Below are positions 16,256 through 25,282 of a DNA stretch of 48,618 bases, one piece after another. The notes below the pieces were generated by a model. The model saw only the letters and a list, made by a program, of their open reading frames with translations. It did no database searches and was not told where the DNA came from. Every line of letters starts with the position of its first letter. Position 1 is the first letter of the stretch. Origin of the DNA: Ignavibacteria bacterium CG2_30_36_16 (GTDB lineage Bacteria > Bacteroidota > Ignavibacteria > Ignavibacteriales > Ignavibacteriaceae); the NCBI GenBank assembly GCA_001873185.1, contig MNYQ01000138.1:1-48618 (forward strand), written 5' to 3'. A program made the translations under genes and the position numbers.

Positions 16256-16498
16256 TTAACCTCTTCTATCTAATAAGGATCCAACAGCAACGCCAGCCAT
16301 TTTTCCTCTGCTATTATAAAAATGATGATCCATTATTTCCTCCTTGCTTTCGGGATATAATTTTGTAAAAAATTGTTTTTCGTCACCGGTTACTTTTTCG
16401 GGAAGGGCTGATTTAACAGGACTGCTATTTTGTGCAGGCGAAGCGCTGCCAACTTTATATGGCGTGTAATTTCCAATCATATTAGTGTTAATTTTCAT
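16256..16498 (-). CDS. Uncharacterised small protein between flgC and fliE
   Basis: ORF packed between flgC stop (16503) and fliE; likely start MKINTNMIGNYTPYKVG (ORF track start 16528 overlaps flgC). No family recognised. Confidence 0.65.
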   Translation of the reverse strand: MKINTNMIGNYTPYKVGSASPAQNSSPVKSALPEKVTGDEKQFFTKLYPESKEEIMDHHFYNSRGKMAGVAVGSLLDRRG

Positions 16499-16502
16499 TT
16501 GT

Positions 16503-17003
16503 TTAAATCTCCAGCGAATCTTTTGCAATTTGTTTTGCCGAGTTAAGCGCTGTTAGATTTGCTTCATAACTTCTTGTTGCGGCAATCATCTCAACCATTT
16601 CTGTTATGATGTTCACGTTCGACATCTGCACGTAGCCATTTTCATCAGCATCCGGATGATCCGGCATATAAATAATATCGCCCGCTTTTTTATCAACTTC
16701 TTCTTCAAAACTAATTTTTGCTTCATCGGGATTTCTGATTCCGGGTGAAGAGTTTGGGAATGCTATATGGTCATCACGGGTAACTGCCATTGGGATATTC
16801 ATTTTCTGAAGATCAATATTATTTGAAAATGAATTATTCTTTTGAGAGACGGTCATATATTTACGCTGATATGGTTTGCCGTCTTCGGTGCGTATGTTAT
16901 CGGCATTAGCAATGTTTTCAGCTATTATGTTCATCTTTCTTCTTTGAACACTCATGCCGTTTGCGCTAATATTAAACCCGCTGAACTCGCCGCCTACTTT
17001 CAT
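16503..17003 (-). CDS. flgC: Flagellar basal-body rod protein FlgC
   Basis: 'FNISANGMSVQRRKMNIIAENIANADNIRTEDGKPYQRKYMTVS' and 'NVNIITEMVEMIAATRSYEANLTALNSAKQIAKDSLEI'. Confidence 0.95.
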   Translation of the reverse strand: MKVGGEFSGFNISANGMSVQRRKMNIIAENIANADNIRTEDGKPYQRKYMTVSQKNNSFSNNIDLQKMNIPMAVTRDDHIAFPNSSPGIRNPDEAKISFEEEVDKKAGDIIYMPDHPDADENGYVQMSNVNIITEMVEMIAATRSYEANLTALNSAKQIAKDSLEI

Positions 17004-17507: not shown

Positions 17508-17756
17508 TTATTGGTCAGAGTAATCGAGAACTACTGTTTTAGATTGCCCGCAAGTACAAACAAACTTGATCTCCTTAATAGCGTCCTTCTCATCTTTTTT
17601 TAAAATGATTTTAATTCCGTCCTGGCTGTCTTCTTCAATTGTTATTTTTGCTTTTCCGCTTATTTTTGCAAATTTAGATTTAACCACCGTGCCTTTATTA
17701 ATGGCGTGGTCAAAATAGAACTCATTAAAAATTGCTTCTTCAAAATCATCAGCCAT
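17508..17756 (-). CDS. Uncharacterised small protein with CxC motif, between cheB and flgB
   Basis: 82-87 aa, likely start MADDFEEAIFNEFYF; C-term 'EIKFVCTCGQSKTVVLDYSDQ'; start abuts the cheB stop (17758). Confidence 0.7.
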   Translation of the reverse strand: MADDFEEAIFNEFYFDHAINKGTVVKSKFAKISGKAKITIEEDSQDGIKIILKKDEKDAIKEIKFVCTCGQSKTVVLDYSDQ

Positions 17757-17757
17757 A

Positions 17758-18831
17758 TTACAATACCTCATTAATTATTTTTGCCACATCTTCAAGCGAA
17801 GCCGTTACATCTGCAAACCCTGCATCTACAATTGATTTAGGCATACCATAAACAACGCACGACGCCTCATCCTGCGCAACGCAATAGCCGCCTAACTGCT
17901 TTAATTGTCTTATCCCTTCAAGCCCGTCTTTTCCCATACCGGTCATAATAACACCGAGCGTATGTTTGCCATAAACTTTTACAACCGACTCCATCATCAC
18001 ATCCACAGAGGGGCGGTGAAGCGTTGTAGCAGGCTGTTCCGATATATCGATAAAAACTCCGCCATTTGAGTTTTTTTTAACCGTCATATGAAATCCGCCC
18101 GGCGCAAAATAAACCACGCCGTTGCGTACCGGTTCTTCATGTTCGGCTTCTTTCACTTCAAGTTCACTTAAAGTATCCAACCTTTGTGCCAGAGATTTAG
18201 TAAACTTTGGCGGCATGTGCTGCACAATAAAATAAGGCACTATATTTTTCTTAAGAAAACGGGGAACAACTTTTTGAAGGCTCATCGGTCCGCCGGTTGA
18301 GATACCGAGTGCAACGGCTTTGTACACATTGCGTGGAAGATGGTTTTGTGTTTTTAATTGGGCTGAAGTTCGTGCTGTGGAATTTTTGTTTGTAAGCTGC
18401 TTAAGCCTTTCGAGCCGCTCGCGCAGTGAACGCTGTTTTACAATTGCTTTTATTTTTCTAATTAAATCATCGCGAATGTGGATTATGTTTACATTAATAT
18501 AAGAAAGCTCTTTCGGAATAAAATCTACCGCTCCTAATTCCATAGCCTGAATAGTTGATTCGGCGCCTTCGCTTGTAAGCGAACTAACCATAATTACGGC
18601 GGTTGGACAGTCCTCCATAATTTTTTTCAGCGCAGTCAAACCATTCATGCGCGGCATCTCAATATCCATAGTAACGATATCAGGTCTTAGCTTTTTTACA
18701 AGATTGTACCCTTCTTCTCCATCCCGTGCTGTTGCTATAACATCAATGTTCTCATCGCTTTTTAACATTATTTCGAGCGACTTCCGCATAAAAGCCGAGT
18801 CGTCAACTATTATCGTTTTTATTTTCTGCAT
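17758..18831 (-). CDS. cheB: Protein-glutamate methylesterase CheB
   Basis: REC domain 'MQKIKTIIVDDSAFMRKSLEIML' plus methylesterase 'ALGISTGGPMSLQKVVPRF', 'YFIVQHMPPKFTKSLAQRLD', 'GVIMTGMGKDGLEGIRQLKQLGG'; start placed at MQKIKTI (ORF track 18873). Confidence 0.95.
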   Translation of the reverse strand: MQKIKTIIVDDSAFMRKSLEIMLKSDENIDVIATARDGEEGYNLVKKLRPDIVTMDIEMPRMNGLTALKKIMEDCPTAVIMVSSLTSEGAESTIQAMELGAVDFIPKELSYINVNIIHIRDDLIRKIKAIVKQRSLRERLERLKQLTNKNSTARTSAQLKTQNHLPRNVYKAVALGISTGGPMSLQKVVPRFLKKNIVPYFIVQHMPPKFTKSLAQRLDTLSELEVKEAEHEEPVRNGVVYFAPGGFHMTVKKNSNGGVFIDISEQPATTLHRPSVDVMMESVVKVYGKHTLGVIMTGMGKDGLEGIRQLKQLGGYCVAQDEASCVVYGMPKSIVDAGFADVTASLEDVAKIINEVL

Positions 18832-18835
18832 CAAT

Positions 18836-20731
18836 TTATTCTTGAATTTTGTGAAGCAGTTCGCTGATATCAAGTATCATTACAACCGTGCCGTCTCCCA
18901 TTATTGTAGAGCCCGCAATTCCCGGAACATTGCCGAGGTAATTACCGAGAGATTTAATTACAACTTCCTTTTGACCGATAAGTTCGTCAACTTTAATTCC
19001 GAAGCGTTTTTCGGCTATACCCACAACAACGACATACTGCCAAATACTCTCTTTTTTTTCTTTAGTATCATAGAGCAATTTTTCGATAGAAAGAAGTGGA
19101 AGAACCGAATCTCTGTTTCGAATAACCTCGTGATTATTTATAGTGGTTATATTATCGGCATGAACACGCAATACTTCTATTATTGAATTTAACGGCACTA
19201 CAACTTTCTCTTTGTCAATCCGGACAATCATACCCGGTATAATTGCCAGTGTTAAAGGAAGTTTGATTAATATTTTTGTTCCCTGTCCAACATTCGATTC
19301 AATTGAAATTATTCCTCGAAGTTTTGTTACGTTTGTTTTTACTACGTCCATTCCAACGCCTCTGCCGGAAACATTTGTAACAACTTCAGCCGTCGAAAAT
19401 CCCGGGAGAAAAATAAGGTTTAGAGCATCCTGTCTCGAAAGTTCGGCTGCCTTTTCTTTTGTAATCATCCCCTTACTAACTGCTTTCTGTTTTATTTTAT
19501 CGGGGTCAATCCCTTTGCCATCGTCTTCAATACAAATTAGAATATTGTTGCCTTCATGTTCGGCGCTTAATTTAATCGTTCCAGCTCTATTTTTATCCGC
19601 AGCTTCTCTTTGTTCGGGCATTTCAATTCCATGGTCAGCCGAGTTGCGTATAAGATGGACGAGAGGATCGTTTATTTCTTCAATTAGAGTTTTGTCAAGT
19701 TCTGTTTCTTCACCGCTTATTTCAATTTTGATTTCTTTCTTTGCATCTTTAGCGAGGTCGCGCACAACTCTCGGGAACCGGTTAAATACTTTCCCTATTT
19801 TTATCATTCTGGTTTTCATCACAACAAGCTGAAGCTCATTTGTCATCAGATCTATTTGTTTGGCAGCTTCCGCCAGGTCGTGAGAAAATTTTGTTCCTTC
19901 CAATTCTAACGCTACTTCGGAGTTTACCTGCTGCAGCCTGTTCCTTCCGAGTACAAGTTCCGAGACGATATTTAATAAATCGTCTAACCGTTCCACGTCA
20001 ACGCGTATGTTATTATCCCCTTTTCGCTTCGCGCCGGGCACAACTGCGGCGCCGTTTTGCGCGTCTTTATGTTCTTCTGTTTGAAAATGATTTTCTGTTT
20101 CGCTTTGAATTTCATGTTCAATTTCTAAAGGAACACTTTCGTTAATGCCAGGGCTTTCGATATTCTGAACTTGTGCTGACGCTTCAATTATCTTTACCTC
20201 TTCCGTGGATTCAACTTTTGTTTTCTTTTTTCTACCGGGAGTTTTTTTTGCTGTGGATTTTTTCTTCGCAGCCGTTTTTTCTGGCTTTGTTATTTGTACG
20301 GTTGAAGGGATTTCTAATTTTTGAATTAAGTCCGCAAGTAATTCTACAACACCTTCAACTTCAATATCTTCATTAGCGTTAACTTCAACCGAGTCTAATA
20401 TTACTTTTAAAAGATCGTATGAAGAAAGTATTCCATCCATAAGTTCACTTGATAATGCAGCTTCACCTTTACGGAGTTTATTTAAAATATCTTCACATTT
20501 GTGTGTAACGCGGGTCATTTTGTCGAGACCGAGAAAACCGGATGTTCCTTTAATAGTATGAAATCCCCGAAAAATTTGATTAAGCAATTCCATATCATCC
20601 GGGCGTTTTTCAATTTCAACGAGGTCAATATCAAGTTTTTCCAGTATCTCTTTTGTTTCGATTATAAAACTTTCAACAATCTCCTTCATTTCGGGATCGC
20701 TGAGCATATTGTATGTAGTTTCTGCTGCCAT
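18836..20731 (-). CDS. cheA: Chemotaxis histidine kinase CheA
   Basis: HPt 'FRGFHTIKGTSGFLG', 'IRVDVERLDDLLNIVSELVLGRNRL', 'LVHLIRNSADHGIEMPEQREAADKNRAGTI', 'GRGVGMDVVKTNVTKLRGIISIES', C-terminal CheW-like domain. Confidence 0.96.
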   Translation of the reverse strand: MAAETTYNMLSDPEMKEIVESFIIETKEILEKLDIDLVEIEKRPDDMELLNQIFRGFHTIKGTSGFLGLDKMTRVTHKCEDILNKLRKGEAALSSELMDGILSSYDLLKVILDSVEVNANEDIEVEGVVELLADLIQKLEIPSTVQITKPEKTAAKKKSTAKKTPGRKKKTKVESTEEVKIIEASAQVQNIESPGINESVPLEIEHEIQSETENHFQTEEHKDAQNGAAVVPGAKRKGDNNIRVDVERLDDLLNIVSELVLGRNRLQQVNSEVALELEGTKFSHDLAEAAKQIDLMTNELQLVVMKTRMIKIGKVFNRFPRVVRDLAKDAKKEIKIEISGEETELDKTLIEEINDPLVHLIRNSADHGIEMPEQREAADKNRAGTIKLSAEHEGNNILICIEDDGKGIDPDKIKQKAVSKGMITKEKAAELSRQDALNLIFLPGFSTAEVVTNVSGRGVGMDVVKTNVTKLRGIISIESNVGQGTKILIKLPLTLAIIPGMIVRIDKEKVVVPLNSIIEVLRVHADNITTINNHEVIRNRDSVLPLLSIEKLLYDTKEKKESIWQYVVVVGIAEKRFGIKVDELIGQKEVVIKSLGNYLGNVPGIAGSTIMGDGTVVMILDISELLHKIQE

Positions 20732-20733
20732 AA

Positions 20734-21492
20734 TTATGAAAACAATTTATCTATTTCGTCTTGTGTTGTTCTAAATCCGTTATTGTTTACGAGTGAATCT
20801 GCCAACTGCTGCTGGCTTACATCTTTGCCGTAACGGGCTTCAGGGTTAAAACTTGCATCGTCCGGGACGGCAATTTTCATGGTTTTTAATTCGTCGTTAT
20901 TTGTTTCCTGAAAATCTACAAGCAGTAAAGATAGTTTATTCTGCACACCGCTTATTAAATGATTAACCGCCGATAACTGCTGTGAAGTAATATCCTGAAC
21001 TTGAAGTGATAAAGTAATATTGTAAGCGTCATTTTTAATTTTTTGAAGAACGCTTAGCACACTATTAAGCTCTTCATATTCGTTATTGAGTTCTTCATAA
21101 TTAATTAGTAAAGATTTCGCTTCGGGATTATCTTTTACTGCTTCAGTTAGTTTTTGAATAATTTTCGATTTCTGTTTTTCTCTTTCGGTTAAGCCTTTCA
21201 AATCTTTTTCTATCGAATCGATATCTGAGTTTATTAAATCGACAATGTCGAGAATTTCAGTTGTTGCTAGTTCGGTAGCTTCGGTAACATCAGCGATTTG
21301 GTTAGATGCTTTCGGTATTTTAGTAGTGCTATCGGCAATAGAGCTGTTTATATTTTCGAGAAGCGGAACTGTTTCCTGCATAAAGTCAATTAAACTTTGT
21401 ATTATAGGAATCAGCTTCTGCCCGTAGCGAAAGACTGATTTAAGATCGTTAAGTTTTTCAAAAAGCTCGGTCATGTTTGCTGGTCGGTTCAT
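20734..21492 (-). CDS. cheZ: CheZ-like protein phosphatase
   Basis: Helical protein with 'ITLSLQVQDITSQQLSAVNHLISGVQNKL' (CheZ-type QDxTxQ) and acidic C-terminal peptide 'TQDEIDKLFS'; between cheY and cheA. Confidence 0.8.
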   Translation of the reverse strand: MNRPANMTELFEKLNDLKSVFRYGQKLIPIIQSLIDFMQETVPLLENINSSIADSTTKIPKASNQIADVTEATELATTEILDIVDLINSDIDSIEKDLKGLTEREKQKSKIIQKLTEAVKDNPEAKSLLINYEELNNEYEELNSVLSVLQKIKNDAYNITLSLQVQDITSQQLSAVNHLISGVQNKLSLLLVDFQETNNDELKTMKIAVPDDASFNPEARYGKDVSQQQLADSLVNNNGFRTTQDEIDKLFS

Positions 21493-21504: not shown

Positions 21505-21882
21505 TTAATTGGTTGATAATATTTGCTCTATTTTTTCCCGGAGCACTTGCGGTGTAAAAGGTTTTACAACATAATTATTTACTTTGGCTTGAAGCGCTTC
21601 TATTATATCTTCTTTAACTCCGCGCGTAGTAACCATAAGGATTGGCAGAGATGATAGTTTCTGATCCGAACGTATTGCGCGTGTTAACTCAAGCCCGGAG
21701 AGCACCGGCATATTCCAGTCCGTTATTACAAAGTTTATAGAGTCATCTGCCGCTAATTTAACAAGCGCTTCTTTACCATCGGCGGCTTCTACATAGTTGC
21801 TAAAACCAAGATTGCGCAAGCTATTAAAAACAATTCTACGCATTGTTACTGAATCATCAACAATTAAAAATTTTAATTCCAT
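21505..21882 (-). CDS. cheY: CheY response regulator
   Basis: 'MELKFLIVDDSVTMRRIVFNSLRNLGFSNYVEAADGKEAL...FVITDWNMPVLSGLELTRAIR...NNYVVKPFTPQVLREKI'. Confidence 0.92.
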   Translation of the reverse strand: MELKFLIVDDSVTMRRIVFNSLRNLGFSNYVEAADGKEALVKLAADDSINFVITDWNMPVLSGLELTRAIRSDQKLSSLPILMVTTRGVKEDIIEALQAKVNNYVVKPFTPQVLREKIEQILSTN

Positions 21883-21891
21883 TAATTAACC

Positions 21892-22257
21892 TCAATTTAA
21901 ATATTTAGACACTTCATATATTATCCGCTTCGGATCGAACGGCTTAATTAGGTAAGAATTTGCTCCGCATTCTAATCCCTTAGATATTTCATCGCTTCCT
22001 GAAAGCGAAGACAAAATGATGATAGGCGTTTCTTTATATTCATTATTATTCCGTATAGTTTTTATTAATTCAAATCCATCAAGATTGGGCATATTAAGAT
22101 CTGTTATTATCAAATCAATTTTACATGCAGGAATTTTTTCTAAAGCTTCCATACCGTCGCTTGCAGGAATAATATCAAAACCTTTAGCAGATAACGCAAA
22201 CGCGACAAATTTTCTTATCGAAGGCGAATCATCCGCAACAAGTACAACCTTTTTCAT
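21892..22257 (-). CDS. Second single-domain CheY-like response regulator
   Basis: 'KKVVLVADDSPSIRKFVAFALSAKGFDIIPASDGMEALEKI...LIITDLNMPNLDGFELIKTIR...NSYLIKPFDP'. Confidence 0.9.
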   Translation of the reverse strand: MKKVVLVADDSPSIRKFVAFALSAKGFDIIPASDGMEALEKIPACKIDLIITDLNMPNLDGFELIKTIRNNNEYKETPIIILSSLSGSDEISKGLECGANSYLIKPFDPKRIIYEVSKYLN

Positions 22258-22265
22258 ATTGTTTA

Positions 22266-23159
22266 CTACTCCTTCTTGTAACCAATCGTTTTGGGAAAAC
22301 TAATAAGCTTAAAAGCTTTGGATATTCCGTGCAACGTTTCGGAATACCCGATGAATAAATAACCGCCTTTTGATAATGAATTGTAGAGCGAATTAACTAC
22401 TTTAATTTTCGAATCAGCATTGAAATAAATCAGTACATTTGCGCAATAAATGATGTCAAAGTTCATCATCATTTTCATAGCCATAGTATCGTATAAGTTA
22501 AGCAGTCTAAAAGAAACCATATTTTTAATCTGCGGCAGTATCTCGAAACCTGCAGCATTTTGTTTGAAATATTTTTTTAAATAATAAGCGGGAGCGTTAC
22601 GAATCGAATACTCTTTATAAACGCCGTTCTTAGCCGTATCCAGCACGGCTGAACTTATATCGGTTCCCACAATTTCAAATTCAATATTGGGAAAGCGGGG
22701 TTTGATAAGATCCCAAATAACTATAGCAACAGAATATGGCTCTTCGCCGGAAGAACTTGCTGCGCTCCAAATGCGTATTTTGTTTTTACCGGATTTTTTC
22801 TTTTCAGCAATCAGCTCGGGCATAACTGTGTTTACAAGGACGTCGAGCTGTGGTTGATTTCGGAAGAAGAATGTTTCGTTAATTGTAATTGCTTCGAACA
22901 GATATTTTTTCTCGGAAGAGGAATTCGTACTGTATTTCAAATGATCGAGATAGTGATCGAATGATTCAAGCCCGAGAAAGGCAATGCGTTTTTGAAGCCT
23001 GCTTTCCAGCAAATACTTTTTATTATCCTGAAAATAAATACCGCAGTTTTCGTAAATGTATTGTCTCCAGTTTTCAAAAGAAGAGACCGACAAAGCGAGA
23101 CTTTGTTTTTGATTCAGAAAACTATTTCGGGCAACTGCAAGTGTTGATAGATTATTCAT
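22266..23159 (-). CDS. cheR: Chemotaxis methyltransferase CheR
   Basis: 'ITINETFFFRNQPQLDVLVNTVMPEL', 'IRIWSAASSSGEEPYSVAIVI', 'FDIIYCANVLIYFNADSKIKVVNSLYNSLSKGGYLFIGYSETL'. Confidence 0.95.
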   Translation of the reverse strand: MNNLSTLAVARNSFLNQKQSLALSVSSFENWRQYIYENCGIYFQDNKKYLLESRLQKRIAFLGLESFDHYLDHLKYSTNSSSEKKYLFEAITINETFFFRNQPQLDVLVNTVMPELIAEKKKSGKNKIRIWSAASSSGEEPYSVAIVIWDLIKPRFPNIEFEIVGTDISSAVLDTAKNGVYKEYSIRNAPAYYLKKYFKQNAAGFEILPQIKNMVSFRLLNLYDTMAMKMMMNFDIIYCANVLIYFNADSKIKVVNSLYNSLSKGGYLFIGYSETLHGISKAFKLISFPKTIGYKKE

Positions 23160-23168
23160 GCCTTATTA

Positions 23169-24563
23169 TCAATTTTTATTTTCATATTCAGCTGAGAATT
23201 GGGCTAAAATCATACTTGCTCTTTCACTTATCATTTCTTCCTGATCTTCAGAAAGTTTTACAAGAGCAGTCAAAGATTCTTCTCCCGGATTAGATTCGAG
23301 CAATTCTAAAAGTTTTAATTTATTCCACAAGTTGTCATCTTCAATCATTTTATCCACGAACATCAGCGCCGTAGATGGCTCTAACAAAAAAAGCAGTTCG
23401 GCTGATGTGCGCCTAATTTCTTCATCAGAATTATTCAAACAATTCACAAACGAATCAAGAAGACTGCGAAGTTCAATTTGATATATTGAAGAAGTTATCT
23501 GACCGGGATTGTCGTCGTATATTTCTTTTATTAAAGATAGAATGTGGCGAAGATTTTTAGGAACGGAATTTATTACTCCGTTCAACTTAGAGAGCAAAAA
23601 GTTACGGTTCTCAAAGAACTTCGGTTTTAATGTCTCGTCCAATTCTGCATCTTCACCATAAATATTTAAACATGCCGCAACAACATCGCCGTCATTAAAT
23701 TCTGAAACGAGCTGGGCTGCCGCTTTCTTATATTTTATTTCCGCTTCAGCTATGGTTAACAGAATAAGGTTTTTCATTCGCTCGTCATATGGAACGTCAA
23801 AACTAAATTTTTCTTTGAGGGAATAAATAGACTCGAGCAAAGGCCAAACAAGAGCACCTTCCGTTGAATTCAGTTCATTAAGAAGAAAAAAGAAAGTTTC
23901 CATATTGCCGATAAGTCCAAGGCTTTCAATCATCGCAAACTGCGTAATCACATCTTCGCTGCGGTATCTTGAAATTATAAATTCGCGTGCTTCTTCGCAG
24001 CCAATTTTACCAAAGGCTTCAACAACCATCGGTTTGTAAAGTTCGCTCTGGTTATATATCTCGATAAGATCTTCCACCGAATCTGAGTGGGCTAAATTTC
24101 CGAGCGCCTCTACACACGCAAGGATGACATTTTCATTTTCGTTTTCTTTCATCACTTGTACTATTTTAGAATAAGCGCTTGAATCGCCTATTAAACCAAG
24201 AATATCGATAAGGAATTTTTTATCATCATCGTTTCCTTTATCAATATAACCGACTAGTGACTGTACTGCGGCTGCGCCAATTTTTAGTAAAATTTCGCCG
24301 GCAAGATTTCTTACTGATATATCTTTTGAGGAAATATATTTAACAAGAATGTGCGGTATTTTTTCATTGCCGTTATAAGATAAAGATAACGATACTGCAT
24401 TTCTCACCCCTTTATCTTGATCCTCGACTAATGCGGTTAACGCCTCAACTAAATCGAGAGTCAGTGATTCGCACATTAGTGATTCAGCAGCGGCAGTTCT
24501 TATAGCTGCATCTTCCGATTTTAGCTGTAAGATTTTTTCATCGTGCATATTTTTGTTACTCAT
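23169..24563 (-). CDS. HEAT-repeat protein, first gene of the chemotaxis cluster
   Basis: Tandem HEAT-like helical repeats ('AAIRTAAAESLM', 'KGVRNAVSLSLS', 'ISVRNLAGEILLKIGAAAVQSLVGYI', 'VVEAFGKIGCEEAREFI', 'EEIRRTSAELLFLL'); ends 10 nt before cheR. Start may be MHDEKILQL at 24548. Confidence 0.85.
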   Translation of the reverse strand: MSNKNMHDEKILQLKSEDAAIRTAAAESLMCESLTLDLVEALTALVEDQDKGVRNAVSLSLSYNGNEKIPHILVKYISSKDISVRNLAGEILLKIGAAAVQSLVGYIDKGNDDDKKFLIDILGLIGDSSAYSKIVQVMKENENENVILACVEALGNLAHSDSVEDLIEIYNQSELYKPMVVEAFGKIGCEEAREFIISRYRSEDVITQFAMIESLGLIGNMETFFFLLNELNSTEGALVWPLLESIYSLKEKFSFDVPYDERMKNLILLTIAEAEIKYKKAAAQLVSEFNDGDVVAACLNIYGEDAELDETLKPKFFENRNFLLSKLNGVINSVPKNLRHILSLIKEIYDDNPGQITSSIYQIELRSLLDSFVNCLNNSDEEIRRTSAELLFLLEPSTALMFVDKMIEDDNLWNKLKLLELLESNPGEESLTALVKLSEDQEEMISERASMILAQFSAEYENKN

Positions 24564-24842
24564 TAAAACTTACCATCGATGGTTTATGAAATGCTCAGCC
24601 GGATTCTATTAAGATTATCGTAAAATCCGACTAATGGTTTAGTATTAACAAGAGTAATGCCGACTAAAAAAATGACTTTTAGAGGACGAGAGAGGATTTT
24701 TTCATATTCCGCAGTATAATATTAGCCAAATGTGTGTGAATGACGTATTAGAAGTTAAGGGCTGCCGAAAGGTTTTGAGAATAGGTAGTGTTTTCGGGTA
24801 ATGACTTAATTATTAAGGTAATAATAATTTGTCAATTTAAAC

Positions 24843-24868
24843 AAAAAACTCTCCGTGGGGAGAGTTTA
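24843..24868 (-). terminator. Rho-independent terminator of the orphan response regulator
   Basis: AAACTCTCC-gtgg-GGAGAGTTT, 9-bp stem, T run on the minus strand. Confidence 0.8.
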
Positions 24869-24892: not shown

Positions 24893-25282
24893 TCATTTGT
24901 TGAGTGAATCGACTAATGTATTCATCAACACATGATTTTCAACTGGCTTGGTTAAAAAAACATCAACCCCGGCATCAAGAGCGTTTTCTCTATCTTTTTT
25001 AAATGCGTGCGCCGATAGACAAACAATAGGTACGTGTTCATATCCTTTTATTTTTCTCAGTTCCCTTGTTAGCTCTAAACCGTTTTTATTTCCGCGAAGA
25101 GAAATATCCATAAGAATGACATCAAACTTATTTTTTTTAAGATTATCATAAAAAGATTGCTCAGAGTCGCAAATTGAAACTTCAAATTTCCGTCGGAGAA
25201 ACATCTCTAAAAATTTTTGATTTTCATAGTCATCTTCTGTAACTAGTATTTTGGGTTTGGTCTGGCTCTCTTCACTGTACAT
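24893..25282 (-). CDS. Single-domain response regulator (orphan)
   Basis: 'KPKILVTEDDYENQKFLEMFLRRKFEVSICDSEQSF...VILMDISLRGNKNGLELTRELRK...DVFLTKPVENHVLM'. Confidence 0.9.
   Translation of the reverse strand: MYSEESQTKPKILVTEDDYENQKFLEMFLRRKFEVSICDSEQSFYDNLKKNKFDVILMDISLRGNKNGLELTRELRKIKGYEHVPIVCLSAHAFKKDRENALDAGVDVFLTKPVENHVLMNTLVDSLNK

Follow-up and report, generated by a model that had tools for sequence, protein, structure and literature searches.

HEAT-repeat proteins have been described in two chemotaxis systems. In Myxococcus xanthus, the HEAT protein Cpc7 binds CheY7 of the Che7 system (Darnell 2014, cited in PMC11514114 and PMC9040617), which governs development and sporulation. 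In Halobacterium salinarum, OE2401F, a HEAT_PBS protein encoded in the che region beside the gene of the DUF439 protein CheF, belongs to an archaeal flagellum system, is essential for taxis and switching, acts with CheF and interacts with CheD and OE2402F (PMC2666748). A different helical repeat, TPR, is found fused to CheR in chemosensory clusters (PMC3447774). With OE2401F and Cpc7 as precedents, a HEAT protein in chemotaxis is not unprecedented, and the first-pass annotation of the DNA analysed here, which put such proteins outside the classical chemotaxis set, overlooked both (PMC2666748; for Cpc7, as described in PMC11514114 and PMC9040617).

The window, i.e. the whole stretch of 48,618 nucleotides analysed (contig MNYQ01000138.1 of Ignavibacteria bacterium CG2_30_36_16), carries on its minus strand the gene order HEAT-cheR-cheY2-cheY-cheZ-cheA-cheB, then an ORF for a small CxC protein and, beyond it, flgB, flgC, a 90-aa ORF, fliE and fliF. 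The features are as follows.

24846..24867, minus strand: terminator-like hairpin between an upstream response-regulator gene and HEAT (9-pair stem and T run)
24713..24740, minus strand: sigma70-like promoter match upstream of HEAT (10/12; weak evidence)
23169..24563, minus strand: HEAT-repeat solenoid protein, putative operon head gene, ATG start, 464 aa (Pfam, AlphaFold2, orthologs)
22266..23159, minus strand: cheR, MCP methyltransferase, 297 aa (Pfam CheR 1.8e-56, CheR_N 1e-16)
21892..22257, minus strand: cheY2, single-domain response regulator, proposed HEAT partner (Pfam Response_reg 2.9e-28)
21505..21882, minus strand: cheY, canonical motor-type CheY, kept in HEAT-less loci (NCBIfam CheY equivalog 6.8e-42, under the curated cut-off)
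20734..21492, minus strand: cheZ-type phosphatase (Pfam CheZ 2.2e-8, over the cut-off)
18836..20731, minus strand: cheA with Hpt, dimerisation, HATPase and CheW domains (Pfam)
17758..18873, minus strand: cheB methylesterase (NCBIfam PRK00742 1.9e-128)
17508..17771, minus strand: CxC small protein, conserved neighbour outside the HEAT-cheY2 pair (no Pfam or NCBIfam match)

From cheR through cheB to the CxC ORF the genes share one strand and are either overlapping or separated by 12 nt at most; the cheB ORF as listed overlaps cheA, its likely start being 18837 or nearby. The first-pass annotation was right about the close spacing of HEAT and cheR, which is 9 nt from stop to ATG and not the 10 nt it gave, and its list of cheR, cheY, cheZ, cheA and cheB holds except that there are two cheY genes where it named one. 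The hairpin and the promoter-like match ahead of HEAT are consistent with its being the head gene; the match (24740-24713) is among the best on the minus strand, as a consensus match only, and promoter-like matches in this upstream region are no more numerous than in shuffled sequence. From spacing and conservation we infer that HEAT is cotranscribed with the che genes. Past the hairpin lies a further single-domain response regulator (24893-25282, minus strand). Only the genus-mate G001 shows the same neighbour with close identity, and this regulator is therefore probably not part of the HEAT module.

The reading of 23169-24563 as a 464-aa HEAT-repeat protein was confirmed in coordinates, length and domain match (Pfam HEAT_2 E=1.1e-25, HEAT E=9e-10, with HEAT_PBS also over its cut-off), and the Pfam search gave no other convincing domain. 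An AlphaFold2 model from a 56-sequence alignment is an unbroken, all-helical solenoid of 29 helices with a mean pLDDT of 95.4. Among solved structures it comes closest to HEAT/ARM solenoids, for instance alphaRep and the PP2A scaffold PR65 (TMq no higher than 0.62); PR65 and the designed alphaRep proteins share the fold and no functional link, and the search yielded generic HEAT/alphaRep matches only. Assignment to the PBS lyase-like NblB family (NCBIfam NF045915) was discarded at 44 bits against a curated cut-off of 300. Pfam found no CheW-like domain that would make it a CheW- or CheV-type coupling protein. Conservation is highest at residues 84-204.

By description, the locus resembles CheY7-Cpc7 in pairing a HEAT protein with a response regulator of the single-domain type from its own system, here through cheR-cheY2 directly downstream of HEAT, and the helix counts are close (27 reported for Cpc7, 29 predicted here). 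It differs from Che7 in that the pair is class-wide and sits in the main operon, where flagellar genes are usually present too. With OE2401F it shares the presence of a HEAT-repeat protein gene in a chemotaxis region; unlike OE2401F, it belongs to a bacterial system, HEAT tracks cheY2 and HEAT persists without flagella. No Pfam match to a CheF-like (DUF439) gene was found among the che neighbours in the window, which are CheR, two CheYs, CheZ, CheA and CheB. As in the CheR-TPR fusions, a helical-repeat module is associated with CheR, but here the HEAT protein is separate and CheR persists without it.

To establish how far the linkage extends, we surveyed gene neighbourhoods in related genomes. 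HEAT orthologs were found in 26 of 41 relatives and in 153 of 393 genomes of the class. The order HEAT-cheR-cheY2-cheY is identical in 25/25 other genomes of the order and, wherever the contig is long enough, the run continues with cheZ-cheA-cheB-CxC. A further 33 loci, of which two belong to the order and 31 to the class or phylum, include 29 with HEAT-cheR-cheY2, reaching other families of the phylum; L191, whose cheY2 is called as a long ORF, is counted among them. The linkage is decidedly not confined to one strain; such confinement was part of what the first-pass annotation had named as fatal to its idea. The remaining four are L178, L177, L179 and L183. L178 (G075) was rejected as an exception, since the contig end beside HEAT carries cheR, and cheY2 sits on the contig with the remainder of cheR. 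L177 and L179 hold a HEAT paralog in a flagellar cluster, and in L183 HEAT is detached, the che operon sitting on another contig (L215). HEAT remains beside che in L035 and L038, where the flagellar genes face away. Named matches come from Ignavibacteriaceae, Melioribacteraceae, Stygiobacter and related MAGs, the nearest relative of the window among those listed being Ignavibacteriaceae bacterium MAG_30 (75% identity). The titles of the best 80 matches of a contig scan, whose patterns were biased to the order, are Ignavibacteria, Bacteroidetes/Chlorobi or unplaced MAGs. Together, these data support the view that HEAT truly belongs to the chemotaxis operon and that the linkage is ancient.

Two side observations concern cheZ and cheR. 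Two tandem cheZ-like ORFs lie between cheY and cheA in L170, L173 and L192. The genome G000 encodes on contig C203 (L057 4968-7913, minus strand), away from its che operon, a second methyltransferase, a large CheR-domain protein some 980 aa long.

The 393 class genomes were also searched separately for HEAT and for cheY2 orthologs: 148 have both, five HEAT only, one cheY2 only and 239 neither, so that the two occur together in 148 of the 154 genomes having either. The Fisher p of 2e-101 carries no correction for phylogeny and, the genomes sharing a phylogeny, is not to be read as independent evidence. The six exceptions are mostly contig ends or the paralog: the contig starts within the HEAT C-terminus in G661, ends just past cheR in G666 and ends beside HEAT in G598, while G089 and G276 have only the HEAT paralog, in a flagellar/hybrid-kinase cluster and without cheY2. 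Their genus-mate G499 has this paralog plus a che-linked HEAT with cheY2. Only G683 (93% complete), in which HEAT is present and cheY2 was not detected, is left unexplained. As an observation apart, the paralog of this genus (g55; L177 9121-10500, L179, L221 9386-10807) shares its flagellar cluster with genes for a hybrid kinase and an HDOD-like protein, and outlasts loss of the che operon.

Some che loci of the same CheR kind lack HEAT. Four of them (L203, L206, L207 and L208) read cheR-cheY-cheZ-cheA and a fifth (L205) cheR-cheY; the HEAT-less genomes G196, G386, G176 and G229 retain cheZ-cheA besides cheR-cheY. None of the HEAT-less che loci has cheY2, and no ortholog was found elsewhere in those genomes (best score 92 bits or less, against at least 119 bits in HEAT-bearing che genomes). 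The gene separating HEAT from cheY2, cheR, is nevertheless retained, so the joint loss cannot be put down to one deletion. In G061, HEAT has moved away and cheY2 remains in the che operon. HEAT switches between presence and absence at least five times on a tree of CheR, and cheY2 matches it in all rows, although well-supported branches give only two independent contrasts, with which a sign test cannot reach significance. Across the class, then, HEAT is apparently obligate with one of the two CheYs.

This pattern bears on the proposal of the first-pass annotation that HEAT is a general organiser of signalling complexes. In such a role it would tether CheR, CheA and other Che proteins in the array, CheY2 being merely one client, which would fit its near-universal position beside cheR, the usual scaffolding role of HEAT solenoids (the fold resembles that of the PP2A scaffold PR65 at TMq up to 0.62) and the helical-repeat precedent of the CheR-TPR fusions (PMC3447774). 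Yet CheR, CheA, CheZ, CheB and CheY survive without HEAT and CheY2 does not; the loci that keep cheR-cheY-cheZ-cheA and lack cheY2 instead mean that HEAT is not the obligatory partner of CheR, contrary to a role as general organiser or CheR scaffold. The proposal also drew on the lack of CheW and receptor genes. We likewise found no receptor or free CheW gene within the window, but contig C183 of the same genome encodes an MCP and a separate CheW, so nothing can be read from their not being in the window, there is no array gap for HEAT to fill and its candidacy as a replacement for either was rejected. We consider a general array scaffold rather unlikely. HEAT was also considered as a substitute for the CheA P2 domain, which Pfam did not detect in the window cheA; since P2 is missing from CheAs with and without HEAT alike, there is no contrast to support this.

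FliG is present in all 26 HEAT genomes of the order; among the FliG-bearing genomes there, G014 alone is without HEAT, and it is missing CheR as well. In the phylum sample, six genomes that are 99-100% complete (G108, G264, G284, G298, G306 and G363) keep HEAT and the che operon, and FliG and FlhA are absent; their loci hold HEAT-cheR-cheY2-cheY-cheA-cheB, or the part of it that each locus covers. HEAT thus belongs to the che pathway and not to the flagellum, and its candidacy as a flagellum-bound part is weakened accordingly. In family f32 and other genomes of the phylum we also noted FliG_C-domain proteins of about 600-650 aa, some of them where no canonical FliG match exists.

If HEAT served as an adaptor linking CheY to the flagellar switch, it would parallel OE2401F, a HEAT protein that is needed for flagellar switching and contacts CheD and OE2402F, acting with CheF in haloarchaea (PMC2666748), and FliG in 26/26 HEAT genomes of the order would be expected. 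The six genomes without FliG or FlhA show that HEAT is not confined to genomes with a motor, and G014 is flagellated without it. Bacterial CheY, moreover, binds the flagellar motor directly. We regard such an adaptor as improbable.

The first-pass annotation had further grouped HEAT, the CxC protein and the flgC-fliE protein as one system. The 90-aa ORF in the flgC-fliE interval (16256-16528, minus strand) recurs at this place in almost every flagellar cluster of the order, at 29-54% identity, and is present beyond the order too; the CxC gene (17508-17771, minus strand) follows cheB here and adjoins flgB in G014. G014, without HEAT or cheR, keeps both genes beside flagellar ones, and HEAT-che exists without flagella. 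With CxC staying by flgB where che and HEAT are absent, the three-protein grouping is unsupported, and the CxC protein seems to be tied more closely to the flagellar genes than to HEAT.

What, then, might HEAT do with CheY2? CheY2 retains the acidic pair and the phospho-Asp, Thr/Ser and Lys positions, D10, D53 and K105 being invariant. Its most conserved stretch is beta5-alpha5 (0.81), and its beta4-alpha4 region is less conserved than that of CheY (0.66 vs 0.80), as would be expected if CheY2 had a partner other than FliM. Residue couplings of HEAT, computed by mean-field DCA on 84 paired operons (Neff about 74), do not single out CheY2, the top z values being 10.8 for CheY2, 10.7 for CheZ, 9.1 for both CheR and CheB and 8.9 for CheY.

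Two CheYs behind one CheA are the usual phosphate-sink arrangement in alphaproteobacterial systems. HEAT could accordingly sequester or stabilise CheY2~P and set the lifetime of CheY-P while driving no output itself; in keeping with this, CheY2 has all phosphoacceptor residues. Most of these operons, however, encode CheZ as well, and a sink has no need for a large conserved partner; we give this tuning role little credence.

Our preferred reading, which we hold to be fairly probable, is that HEAT is the dedicated partner, and most likely the effector, of the CheY2 encoded in the same operon. The analysis shows the two genes to be linked and to occur together, a solenoid fold to be predicted for HEAT and the phosphorylation residues of CheY2 to be intact; the joint loss with cheY2, the conservation pattern of CheY2 and the CheY7-Cpc7 precedent suggest that CheY2 works through HEAT, and by analogy with that Myxococcus pair CheY2 would bind the HEAT solenoid. 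In the standard pathway, receptors and CheW drive CheA. CheA would then phosphorylate CheY, bound for the flagellar switch, and also CheY2; CheY2~P may use its conserved beta5-alpha5 face to dock on the N-terminal half of HEAT (approximately residues 50-230), which is conserved as well, and the complex could carry or tune a second output of the same CheA for which flagella are not required. Retention of the whole module in flagella-less genomes favours a second output. The broader scheme, in which one CheA has two outputs throughout the class, acting on the flagellar switch through CheY and on a different, flagellum-independent process through an obligate CheY2-HEAT pair, is put forward tentatively as a possibility that we would not yet favour.

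Although HEAT in chemotaxis is itself known, a class-wide, operon-encoded HEAT protein paired with one of two CheYs appears to be new: no description of a HEAT-CheY pair in Ignavibacteria or Bacteroidota was found in the open-access literature searched. Extra CheYs are common in bacteria and their targets obscure, and here gene content points to one candidate target. HEAT is kept or lost with one CheY over about 150 species, and CheR, CheY, CheZ and CheA, which do not follow, serve as internal controls. The pair is testable, since relatives named Melioribacter and Stygiobacter carry HEAT-cheY2. If the two-output scheme is true, the HEAT solenoid would be a new class of dedicated chemotaxis effector, one that several lineages have kept after losing their flagella. 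The coupling of a CheY to a HEAT protein, so far described in Myxococcus, may be a more general solution.
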